DNA of 64,000 nt from Bacteroidia bacterium (GTDB lineage: Bacteria > Bacteroidota > Bacteroidia > Flavobacteriales_D > Cryomorphaceae), in the NCBI GenBank assembly GCA_030427905.1, contig JAUICL010000002.1, forward strand, positions 62,001-126,000. The letters run 5' to 3'. Under the pieces are notes generated by a model. The model did no database searches, was not told the origin of the DNA, and saw only the letters and a list, made by a program, of their open reading frames with translations. A program made the translations under genes and the position numbers. Position 1 is the first letter of the stretch. The number at the start of each line of letters is the position of its first letter. Shown one piece after another: positions 21,734 through 24,002 of this stretch.

Positions 21734-22429
21734 ATGGAAGAACAATCTCCGCATCAACAAGTATTGGATTTGGTCAAAGCCAAATCGATGCACAAGCGCG
21801 ATGTCTTCGAGCTTCTTCAGAGTCGATTTCAGACTTTTAAGGAAGTACTGAAAGAACTGACTGAAGAGTTTAAGACGGAAGTTGCGGCGATAGATCCACG
21901 GTTAGAAGTAGCGTATAAAGATCTTGGTGCTTTTTATTGCCAACTTACCATTGCGGGTGATGTTCTTTTGTTTTCGATGCACACCAATGTCTTTCGGTTT
22001 CCGAACAATAGCGTGTATTGGCGATCTTCTTATTTACAAGAAGACAAGCAGCGAGGATATGTTGGAATCATCCAGATCCACAATTTCCTAGCCGATAGTT
22101 TTCGATATCACCGAGAGCAGGATCTTGGTTATTTGATTGGGCGGCTCTTTATCAATTCAGAAGACCACTATTTCCTAGAAGGGAAGAAGGAATTGGGCTA
22201 TAAGTACAACGATTTTGTGAATGCAGTTATTGATCGGGATAAGATGAAGGAGATTCTCTGTTCGATTATTACGTACACGATAAAGTTTGATCTCTACATT
22301 CCGGCGTACAGTGAGGTGCAAGAAGTAACACTCCGCGAAGTCAATAGAATGAAGGATAATGTCAATCTCCGTACGGGGAAAAGACTTGGTTTTCAGTTCC
22401 AATGGGAGGACACCACATCAGACGATTAA
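21734..22429 (+). CDS. conserved protein of unknown function downstream of proS
   Basis: 231 residues from the ATG at 21734 (MEEQSPHQQVLDLVKAKSMHKRDVF). It is soluble, with no signal or membrane segment; a helical N-terminal third (LLQSRFQTFKEVLKELTEEF) precedes a mixed domain with FYCQLTIAGDVLLFSMHTNVFRFP and GYVGIIQIHNFLADSF. I do not recognise the family. The 4-nt gap to proS suggests co-transcription; the next feature on this strand is tRNA-Glu. Confidence 0.7.
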   Translation: MEEQSPHQQVLDLVKAKSMHKRDVFELLQSRFQTFKEVLKELTEEFKTEVAAIDPRLEVAYKDLGAFYCQLTIAGDVLLFSMHTNVFRFPNNSVYWRSSYLQEDKQRGYVGIIQIHNFLADSFRYHREQDLGYLIGRLFINSEDHYFLEGKKELGYKYNDFVNAVIDRDKMKEILCSIITYTIKFDLYIPAYSEVQEVTLREVNRMKDNVNLRTGKRLGFQFQWEDTTSDD

Positions 22430-22447
22430 TTTTTTTCCTAAAATCTA

Positions 22448-22477
22448 TTGCAGTCCTAAAAAAGCGTTTTATATTTG
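22448..22477 (+). promoter_or_regulatory. promoter for tRNA-Glu (TTG-N19-TATATTTG)
   Basis: TTG at 22448-22450 and TATATTTG at 22470-22477, 19 nt apart, 29 nt before the tRNA. The same elements with the same 19-nt spacing precede rpsT, in agreement with the Bacteroidota -33/-7 promoter form. Confidence 0.75.
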
Positions 22478-22506
22478 CACCCGCTTCTGAAAGGAAGTCC
22501 CTATTT

Positions 22507-22578
22507 GGCCCGTTCGTCTAGGGGTTAGGACGCCAGGTTTTCATCCTGGTAGCAGGGGTTCGAATCCCCTACGGGCTA
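22507..22578 (+). tRNA. tRNA-Glu (anticodon TTC)
   Basis: Cloverleaf of 72 nt: acceptor GGCCCGT pairs with ACGGGCT, D-arm GTC...GAC, anticodon stem CCAGG/CCTGG with TTC at 22540-22542, and T-arm AGGGG-TTCGAAT-CCCCT. The discriminator is A22578. CCA is not encoded. It reads Glu codons GAA and GAG. Confidence 0.97.
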
Positions 22579-22746
22579 CGAAGAATACCCCGACCGACAG
22601 GTCGGGGTTTTTTTATGCCCCAAAATTTGTCTGAGCTCTGCTCAAGGAAATTTTGGGGTATAAAAAAAGTCCATCTGCCGCAGGCAGGTGGTATTCTTCG
22701 TATTTTGATTTAACGATACAGGGATCACCCCGAAAGCCTTCGGGGT
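22579..22746. repeat. cluster of nested inverted repeats after tRNA-Glu
   Basis: An outer pair CGAAGAATACC (22579-22589) and GGTATTCTTCG (22690-22700) is perfectly complementary and encloses three hairpins: the terminator stem at 22587-22608, CCCCAAAATTT/AAATTTTGGGG (22618-22628 and 22648-22658), and CCATCTGCC/GGCAGGTGG (22671-22691). A fourth hairpin, ACCCCGAA/TTCGGGGT, lies at 22727-22746. No reading frame explains this. The arrangement resembles a small palindromic repeat element, but copies elsewhere cannot be tested here. The rest of 22747-22835 shows nothing I can support beyond a short hairpin at 22811-22825. Confidence 0.75.
22587..22616 (+). terminator. terminator after tRNA-Glu
   Basis: ACCCCGACC and GGTCGGGGT form a 9-bp GC-rich stem with a 4-nt loop, followed by T residues. 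It lies 8 nt after the tRNA 3' end and is nested inside a larger palindrome (22579-22700). Confidence 0.85.
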
Positions 22747-22835
22747 AATCTGCTTCTTCAAATCATAGTTGAAATCTTTTTGAATGCGGTTTTGAGAACA
22801 GAAATACTATCCAATAAAATATTGGTTTAGAGTCT

Positions 22836-22928
22836 TTACGTATCGAGATGCCGATCACGAAGGCGTCTATCGCCAAAGACCCTAGCGACGGCGATCAGCA
22901 TGAGTAATCCCGTCAACCAATTTCTCAT
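22836..22928 (-). CDS. possible 30-residue membrane peptide
   Basis: A minus-strand ATG at 22928 opens 30 codons: MRNWLTGLLMLIAVARVFG then a basic tail RRLRDRHL. One membrane helix with a positive tail is plausible for a small membrane protein. It lies just past the gpmA terminator, and I see no promoter of its own. It may be chance. Confidence 0.25.
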   Translation of the reverse strand: MRNWLTGLLMLIAVARVFGDRRLRDRHLDT

Positions 22929-22933
22929 CCAAG

Positions 22934-22960
22934 AAAAAAGCCAACCCTTTCGGATTGGCT
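22934..22960 (-). terminator. gpmA terminator
   Basis: On the minus strand AGCCAATCC and GGGTTGGCT form the stem (loop GAAA) followed by TTTTT; it lies 24 nt beyond the gpmA stop. Confidence 0.8.
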
Positions 22961-22983
22961 CTTCCTATTAAGTGTGAATTGCT

Positions 22984-23592
22984 CTAGTTTAAGAACCCAG
23001 AAGACTTGATGCTTAAGTCGTCATTTAATTCATAGAGCTTCGGTTTACCTGTCGGGATTTCTACTTGAAGAATCTCTTCTTTATTCAATCCTTCCAAATG
23101 CATAATCAATGCTCTTAAGCTATTGCCATGAGCTGAGATGACGACATCCTTTCCTGCTTTCAGTAGGGGAGCTACTTCTGAATCGAAGTAGGGAATCACA
23201 CGATCGGCAGTATCTTTGAGACTTTCGCCTCCTGGAGGCTGCACGTCAAAAGATCGTCGCCAGATATGCACCTGTTCTTCGCCGTACTTCTCTCTCGTTT
23301 CGTCTTTGTCCAAACCTTGCAGATCGCCATACATGCGCTCATTGAGTGCTTTATTCTTCTCTACGTGTAAGTCTGATTGCCCAATTTTCGCGAGAATGAT
23401 GTCGAGCGTTCGGTTCGCGCGCTTCAATACAGACGAGAATGCCGCATCAAAACGGTAGTCTCGAAGAAGTTCGCCAGCTTGGTTGGCTTCTTCTACTCCT
23501 TTCTCAGCTAGGTCTACATCGACCCAGCCCGTAAATTTATTTTCCTTGTTCCAAACACTTTGCCCGTGTCTTACAACTACTAACTTTGCCAT
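22984..23592 (-). CDS. gpmA: 2,3-bisphosphoglycerate-dependent phosphoglycerate mutase
   Basis: A 202-residue histidine phosphatase-fold enzyme that interconverts 3- and 2-phosphoglycerate. The phosphoacceptor motif VVRHGQSVWN places His9; FTGWVDVDL, ERMYGDLQGL, RRSFDVQPPGGESL and ISAHGNSLRAL (second His) are all present. The ATG at 23592 is preferred to the TTG at 23595. At about 200 residues it is the short dPGM form usual in Bacteroidota rather than the 250-residue E. coli form. Confidence 0.95.
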   Translation of the reverse strand: MAKLVVVRHGQSVWNKENKFTGWVDVDLAEKGVEEANQAGELLRDYRFDAAFSSVLKRANRTLDIILAKIGQSDLHVEKNKALNERMYGDLQGLDKDETREKYGEEQVHIWRRSFDVQPPGGESLKDTADRVIPYFDSEVAPLLKAGKDVVISAHGNSLRALIMHLEGLNKEEILQVEIPTGKPKLYELNDDLSIKSSGFLN

Positions 23593-23750: not shown

Positions 23751-24002
23751 ATGGCAAATCACAAATCAGCCTTAAAGCGCATCAGATCTACCGAGAAACG
23801 TCGTGTTAGAAATCGTTACCAGCACAAGACGACTCGTAACGCTATTAAAGCATTGCGCGACCTAACTGACAAGAAAGAAGCTCAAGAGATGTTGTTGTCT
23901 GTGACTAGCATGATCGATAAGCTTGCTAAGAAAAACATCATTCACAACAACAAGGCTGGAAACTTGAAATCAAAATTGACAAAGCACGTTAACTCGCTTT
24001 AA
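23751..24002 (+). CDS. rpsT: 30S ribosomal protein S20
   Basis: An 83-residue basic protein that binds the 16S rRNA 5' domain. The family N-terminus [21 protein letters not shown] and the conserved C-terminal [18 protein letters not shown] are present. It is monocistronic, with a strong promoter before and a strong terminator after it. Confidence 0.97.

Follow-up and report, generated by a model that had tools for sequence, protein, structure and literature searches.

A folded, gene-less repeat at the 3' ends of tRNA genes in Bacteroidota that may arise by recombination in the T loop

The attC sites of integron cassettes carry the core boxes RYYYAAC and GTTRRRY. REP elements are defined by a tag, GTAG or CGTC, that stays unpaired at the base of their palindrome (PMC3733652), and certain integrative elements target the T stem-loop and restore an intact tRNA (PMC8371274). 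The element described here lies directly behind a tRNA gene and resembles each of these systems in part. A search of titles and abstract beginnings, with subscription papers and preprints little covered, returned no paper describing such elements, and the family is apparently undescribed so far in the literature searched.

The element was noticed in a stretch of 64,000 nucleotides (contig JAUICL010000002.1, positions 62,001 to 126,000, of assembly GCA_030427905.1, family Cryomorphaceae), hereafter the window, directly behind a tRNA-Glu gene. An earlier note on this DNA had reported perfect 11-bp outer arms that enclose three hairpins, with a fourth hairpin beyond them. The arms do form a perfect inverted repeat, but its length is 13 nt (22577-22589 and 22690-22702) and it begins within the tRNA, taking in the last acceptor base and the discriminator. 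The three enclosed hairpins and the one at 22721-22750 were recovered in the predicted fold. The parts of the locus are:

22507..22578, plus strand: tRNA-Glu (ttc), the host gene, by Rfam match (ARAGORN gives 22507-22579)
22577..22589, plus strand: P1 left arm, the 5' side of the outer stem, TACGAAGAATACC, by perfect inverted repeat and compensatory changes in orthologues
22588..22607, plus strand: H1, hairpin of the terminator-like site of the tRNA, by predicted fold and pattern scan
22608..22614, plus strand: T7, a T-run forming the tail of H1 and the 5' foot of H2, by sequence, fold and pattern scan
22608..22668, plus strand: H2, the long central hairpin, TTTTTTTATGCCCC...GGGGTATAAAAAAA, by inverted repeat and predicted fold
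22671..22691, plus strand: H3, the third hairpin, by predicted fold and pattern scan
22690..22702, plus strand: P1 right arm, GGTATTCTTCGTA, by perfect inverted repeat and compensatory changes in orthologues
22703..22720, plus strand: spacer, by eye like those behind tRNA-Glu of relatives (TATTTT...AACG)
22721..22750, plus strand: T*, a T-arm-like hairpin (GGGATC-hairpin-AATC) and right end of the unit, by sequence and inverted repeat

Folded as RNA, the window element reaches -94.4 kcal/mol, compared to -47.4 ± 4.1 kcal/mol for shuffled sequences (z -11.5), and 0/200 shuffles were equally stable. The minus strand gave a z of -10.7, and DNA folding parameters a z of -11.9. The elaborate fold noted earlier is confirmed. 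A pattern scan of 22400-23000 identified four terminator-like sites. One is H1 with the T-run, another the minus-strand version of the H1 stem, which has a poor tail, and the other two are plus-strand sites that overlap H3. H1-T7 (stem 22587-22608 and its tail) fits the intrinsic terminator pattern of a GC hairpin followed by a T-run and, judged by this pattern, would terminate the tRNA transcript, as the earlier note had assumed for the first hairpin. The same note had seen no coding explanation, and the list of open reading frames indeed contains none of at least 50 aa across the element. With the Rfam covariance models, the tRNA was the sole match in the window, and at seven loci searched up to E 1 no family except tRNA reached the gathering score. 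By eye, no convincing minus-strand promoter was seen beside T* in the window or in one relative. Further downstream, the window contains what we take to be an rpsT-like ORF (23751-24002); the element and, presumably, a phosphoglycerate mutase-like gene lie between tRNA-Glu and this ORF, and in several other genomes of the order a similar rpsT-like start follows tRNA-Glu directly. The best-scoring named relatives of a protein encoded nearby are from Flavobacteriales MAGs (45-47% identity), closely followed by Chitinophagales and Bacteroidales, in a search in which near records may be missing; a placement in Flavobacteriales would agree with this.

The own genome of the window (3.81 Mb, 34 tRNA matches) carries the same four-way junction, consisting of an outer stem, a terminator hairpin with T-run, a long central hairpin and a third hairpin, directly behind 10 of its 34 tRNA genes (Val-tac, Gly-gcc, His-gtg, Glu-ttc, Ser-tga, Ser-gct, Pro-ggg, Pro-tgg, Arg-acg, and Arg-tcg). 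Behind an eleventh, Cys-gca, it is present as a second unit; the Pro-tgg and Cys elements were called by reading and model matches, without the fold detector. Other repeats occur in this genome as well. A different palindromic repeat, CCACGCGATACGC...GCTAATCGCGCGGTAGCGGAG-like, was seen by eye behind several element-bearing tRNAs (L097, L113, L116, L118, and L121), and a separate repeat family with CGATACACCCCGAAGGCTTTCGGGGTAC on contig C8 (L003 and L004) has a 20-nt match to the fourth hairpin of the window. Tandem partial tRNA copies without the four-way element are found at tRNA-Asn (L125) and tRNA-Leu(gag) (L127), the partial-copy unit of the latter being about 150 nt long and starting at GAATCC.

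Four genomes of the same family (G001, G003, G006, and G007) have the element at the orthologous tRNA-Glu. In the alignment of the five tRNA-Glu orthologues 91.1% of the cells pair, and both sides have changed in 21 of 50 pairs, compared to a mean of 7.3 after shuffling, with 0/500 shuffles as high; the test rests on five sequences, which is few, and on a structure taken from the same alignment. When the partner was slid along the alignment at most 8 pairs were changed on both sides, a comparison that is biased toward the structure because the structure came from this alignment.

A covariance model built from these five elements was run on eight genomes of the family with looser filters, and on a set of 150 from the order that contains those eight as well. 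Matches at E ≤ 1e-3 were present in 39 of the 150 genomes and, counting both strands of a place as one, comprise 94 sites, 47 within the family and 47 outside. Directly at a tRNA 3' end lie 81 of the 94, while 8 are in tandem behind a tRNA 3' end, 2 are behind tRNA remnants and 3 elsewhere; the model contains the last bases of tRNA-Glu and may slightly favor tRNA ends. In the family, 44 sites start -2 to +11 nt from the tRNA end (the own Ser-gct site was scored on the opposite strand) and 3 are tandem second units. Outside the family, 37 directly adjoin a tRNA end, 2 of them opposite to the scored strand. Five belong to tandem units or arrays, of which two lie at the end of a contig where no more than part of a tRNA end is visible, 2 follow apparent tRNA-end remnants where no tRNA was detected (L250 and L276), and 3 are misses away from tRNAs (G036, G136:C1, and G102, the last behind a 5S rRNA). 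At L250 (G009), where a whole tRNA was not detected, an apparent truncated tRNA from the anticodon arm to the 3' end is followed by the element and by a displaced 3' end that has a T-run of its own. Three weaker matches without a tRNA (G001:C192 and C19, and G000:C5:627810; E 0.005 to 0.022) are beyond the E limit, like the rest of the matches up to E 1 from the family search, and were not counted. The host isotypes include Glu, Val, Gly, Ser, Arg, Pro, Cys, His, Asp, Met, Leu, Gln, Lys, and Phe. In a sample of 296 genomes of the phylum at least 8 match at E ≤ 1e-6, a lower bound because stricter filters were used; 6 of these are outside the order but in the class, and of their 13 sites 12 adjoin a tRNA end, the other one (G151) containing tRNA 3'-end pieces. 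Queried with the window element alone, a blastn search (E 0.01) returned nothing from phages or plasmids. The earlier note had named a single copy and a lack of conserved pairing among relatives as arguments against its suggestion; the first is contradicted by the 94 sites and the second by the doubly changed pairs.

For further analysis we used 80 elements, being the 94 sites minus the 8 tandem units, the 2 at remnants, the 3 misses and 2 scored on the opposite strand (G015:C48 and G047), plus the own-genome Pro-tgg element, which the genome-wide model search had missed and a separate search found. Complementarity between the initial 10 nt, at the tRNA end, and the element's own downstream stretch is independent of the structure derived from the alignment. 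It reaches at least 9 of 10 in 46/80 elements, compared to 97/4000 swapped pairs, and to 3/172 when pairs were swapped inside one genome. A loose fold detector found the four-way junction in 75 of 80 folded elements, the exceptions being own Pro-tgg, G001 Gly, G004 Val, G010 Arg-tct, and G065 Gln. As the loose detector applied to the own-genome tRNAs had also flagged some unrelated tRNA clusters, a stricter detector was adopted later, with which the topology is present in 73/80 elements, in 4/160 dinucleotide shuffles, and in 0/25 own-genome tRNA entries that lack a directly following element. The length of H2 is 56-69 nt in 70 of the 75 folded elements and 40-54 nt in the remaining five. Elements at the same tRNA are alike across genomes (as seen for Glu; trailer identity overall 0.51 vs. 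0.43), and many are therefore inherited rather than new.

Behind the right arm of P1, most elements that were read continue with a short spacer and then GGATC-hairpin-AATCC or a variant of it (T*), the 5' part of which was found by a simple pattern in 52 of 75 elements. The tRNA-Val loci had raised the idea that the right flank is an inverted copy of the tRNA end; this was rejected by a permutation test that favored a direct copy. When the last 25 tRNA bases were aligned to the 60-nt flanks of 75 elements, the flank tracked its own host tRNA in direct orientation (local alignment 16.8 vs. 12.6 ± 0.26 for other isotypes; 0/500 permutations), and the bases after AATC tracked the acceptor (7.28 vs. 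5.63; 0/500). Against the inverted acceptor, the fit of the spacer is poorer than random (500/500 permutations at least as high), and against the direct acceptor it is not significant (31/500). The whole flank scores slightly above random against the inverted tRNA end (12.4 vs. 11.5; 1/500), which we put down to the palindromic T-arm.

Displaced copies of the tRNA 3' end were searched at the 69 loci with enough sequence. A clear copy (16 or 17 of 18 bases) is present in direct orientation at 148-350 nt in 14 of these loci and lacking in the other 55, and at a cut-off of 15 of 18 bases none was found in inverted orientation (0/69) or with other isotypes (0/345). For 13 of these 14 copies, the match runs from A58 onward and the preceding base is changed. 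One further mismatch is present in G000 Pro, G144 Met, and G069 Met, and the sole mismatch of the G099 Met copy is at the third base. A second terminator-like site, defined as at least five T after a foldable stretch and counted without a control, follows 13 of the 14 displaced ends at -4.8 to -19.3 kcal/mol, the one at -4.8 kcal/mol being weak. In several cases the second trailer is unlike the first (10 to 19 of 40 identical in G007 Cys, G010 Arg, G069 Met, and G085 Phe), as would be expected of an old terminator pushed downstream; at other loci with a displaced end the second trailer repeats the unit. Single-step distances give a unit length of about 165-190 nt.

Whole units are found in tandem at the own Arg-tcg and in G002 and G015, and tandem half-units, from the tip of H2 to T*, were seen by eye at many loci (uncounted); at G003 Asp the two half-units are almost the same in sequence. 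G003 and G006, which are congeners, have the element in common at Glu, Val, Pro-ggg, and Pro-tgg and differ at Asp, Gly, His, Ser-gct, and Arg-tct, mostly through decay or internal deletion of a copy and not through a clean empty site. In this comparison the detector's Met call in G003 was unconvincing on reading, G003 Ser-tga was missed although it reads as an element, and one Met stretch of G006 was masked. The internal deletion at G003 Ser-gct resembles slippage between repeats. Snap-back copying as the sole origin of P1 was ruled out, as H3 is not a copy of H1: its likeness to the complement of H1 is 0.447 for the own H1, 0.432 for that of another tRNA in the same genome and 0.406 for any other. 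A snap-back tract reaching P1 would have to cross H3, and selection on pairing is therefore the simpler account.

The plus strand forms the stabler core in 66 of 75 elements with RNA parameters and in 65 of 75 with DNA parameters, a comparison that leans to this strand since its RNA fold was used to set the helix boundaries. For T* the minus strand is the more stable one (38/49, or 41/54 with another delimitation). Mismatches of the G.T and A.C types number 15:0 in H1, 35:9 in H2, 7:4 in P1, and 3:3 in H3, and favor the plus strand in H1 and H2, hardly in P1 and not in H3. GNA triloops give very stable DNA minihairpins (PMC4686876). With a crude stem finder, GNA triloops were counted in 25/75 H3 hairpins (GNRA in 5) and in 8/75 H1 hairpins (GNRA in 16). 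In T* the count varies with the cut (15/49 or 8/54), and because it hinges on the cut and both cuts misplace some ends, the T* loops are not used as evidence for DNA.

What is established comprises the architecture, an almost exclusive position at tRNA ends, pairing that is conserved, old 3' ends displaced with their junction at A58, and second terminator-like sites. On this basis we propose a tRNA-anchored non-coding repeat that is made by T-loop recombination and kept as a folded single strand, an account for which we judge the chances to be evenly balanced. A unit would start at A58 of the host tRNA, contain the tRNA 3' end, the H1-T7 terminator and the four-way core of P1, H1, H2, and H3, and close with T* as a modified copy of the T-arm. 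Units may arise through recombination of the T loop of a tRNA gene with T*, as an insertion or a local duplication, which would give the tRNA a new 3' end and terminator and shift the old ones downstream. In the window, the T-arm of tRNA-Glu, GGGGTTCGAATCCCC, would be the recombination site, between positions 57 and 58; this T-loop boundary was deduced from the displaced copies at other loci. The folded structure would be kept since the folded strand, DNA or RNA, is recognized by a putative recombinase or repair enzyme. Tandem duplication without a special enzyme could yield identical junctions. A more far-reaching version appears unlikely to us: self-contained cassettes that move or amplify as folded single-stranded DNA, the T-arm receiving and T* donating, as a cargo-less, integron-like system with a putative recombinase, anchored in the tRNA genes of one order of Bacteroidota-like bacteria.

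The element might instead be a functional trailer RNA of the tRNA, a possible though rather doubtful explanation. The other suggestion of the earlier note, a structured RNA set free along with the tRNA precursor, belongs here. A read-through transcript would fold into the four-way junction, P1 would extend the acceptor stem and lock the tRNA 3' end, processing or termination would be controlled, and the T-arm copies would be by-products. The conserved pairing fits such an RNA, as do the core being stabler on the plus strand (66/75), the window P1 that takes in the last tRNA bases, and the excess of G.T over A.C in H1 and H2 (yet 7:4 in P1 and 3:3 in H3), although this bias is also compatible with folded DNA. 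However, the terminator-like H1-T7 precedes most of the structure, so that P1 would form in read-through RNA only, and the displaced ends at A58 and the T-arm tracking are left unexplained. We consider it quite improbable that the elements are passive by-products with neither a dedicated function nor an enzyme, in which ordinary terminators are joined to short-homology tandem duplication between the T arm and T* and the palindrome is kept by template-switch correction. Tandem units and half-units are common and the deletion at G003 Ser-gct is slippage-like, as this would predict, but P1 lies outside H3, and correction reaching up to P1 should make H3 the complement of H1, which is not seen; moreover, a by-product should decay, yet this architecture is met with again throughout the order and in further families of the class.

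Very unlikely, in our view, is a bidirectional terminator that protects the tRNA gene from a convergent neighbor. Read on the minus strand, H3 with the A7 run does give a hairpin followed by a T-run, but the pattern scan of the window gives no minus-strand terminator that ends in this T-run. Of the 80 elements, 16 had too short a flank and 1 was without an ORF; among the 63 scored, the nearest downstream ORF is convergent in 34 and co-directional in 29. This is a small difference from own-genome tRNA entries without the element (10 of 25 convergent, 15 co-directional, and 1 more too short). The idea of a shield against convergent genes was rejected for lack of a clear excess of convergent neighbors, and it leaves T* and the displaced 3' ends unexplained. 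Folded single-stranded palindromes are substrates of RAYT/IS200-like Y1 transposases (PMC8266576), and a Y1_Tnp match is present in 23/39 genomes with a model match (G000 included) and in 42/111 without one, in statistics that ignore kinship. A known REP-type repeat moved by such an enzyme nevertheless has hardly any credibility here: a GTAG/CGTC tag was found beside 0/52 T* hairpins, G003 and G006 have several elements and no Y1_Tnp match, and the accessible portion of the REP source does not portray REPs as restricted to tRNA ends (PMC3733652). With an association this weak and such clear exceptions, Y1 transposase is an unlikely agent. The earlier suggestion of a mobile REP/MITE-like repeat at a tRNA 3' end survives in part. 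The multiple copies, the near-exclusive position at tRNA ends, the displaced 3' ends and the second terminator-like sites agree with it, while membership of a known REP or MITE family is not supported, with no tag beside T* and two element-bearing genomes without a Y1_Tnp match.

If T-loop recombination is the correct account, a gene-less family exploits the T loop in a wide variety of tRNA genes, and the tRNA 3' end is renewed together with its terminator. This would change the annotation of tRNA gene tails in these bacteria, and offer a simple model of folded-DNA recombination at tRNA genes as well as an order-wide natural data set on tRNA genes as insertion magnets. Even as an RNA or a terminator device, the elements would represent a conserved four-way junction at tRNA ends that is without description in the literature searched.

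Compared with known systems, H1-T7 resembles the intrinsic terminator of a tRNA gene, for which P1, H2, H3, and T* would be superfluous, and the topology is absent at 25/25 own-genome tRNA entries without the element. As in arrays of integron cassettes, tandem units each close in a palindromic site with an inserted hairpin, but this is a resemblance only. No integrase gene was linked to the elements in this analysis and they have no cargo, and among 75 flanks the RYYYAAC...GTTRRRY pair was found in none, GTTRRRY in none and RYYYAAC in 4. REP and TnpA-REP systems likewise comprise small non-coding palindromic repeats in tandem clusters for which a folded single strand is suspected to matter. 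The elements described here differ from them in the absence of a GTAG/CGTC tag within 6 nt on the 5' side of T*, in their far larger four-way build, in their locus-specific sequences, and in being nearly confined to tRNA 3' ends. With the T-loop integrative elements of tyrosine recombinases they share the T-loop junction, the intact tRNA and the directly displaced old 3' end, and an intact near tRNA with a far direct repeat of its 3' part is clear in 14 of 69 loci. They are distinguished from these by a length of about 165-190 nt, by being gene-less, by carrying a terminator-like site of their own, and by ending in a T-arm with a loop hairpin.
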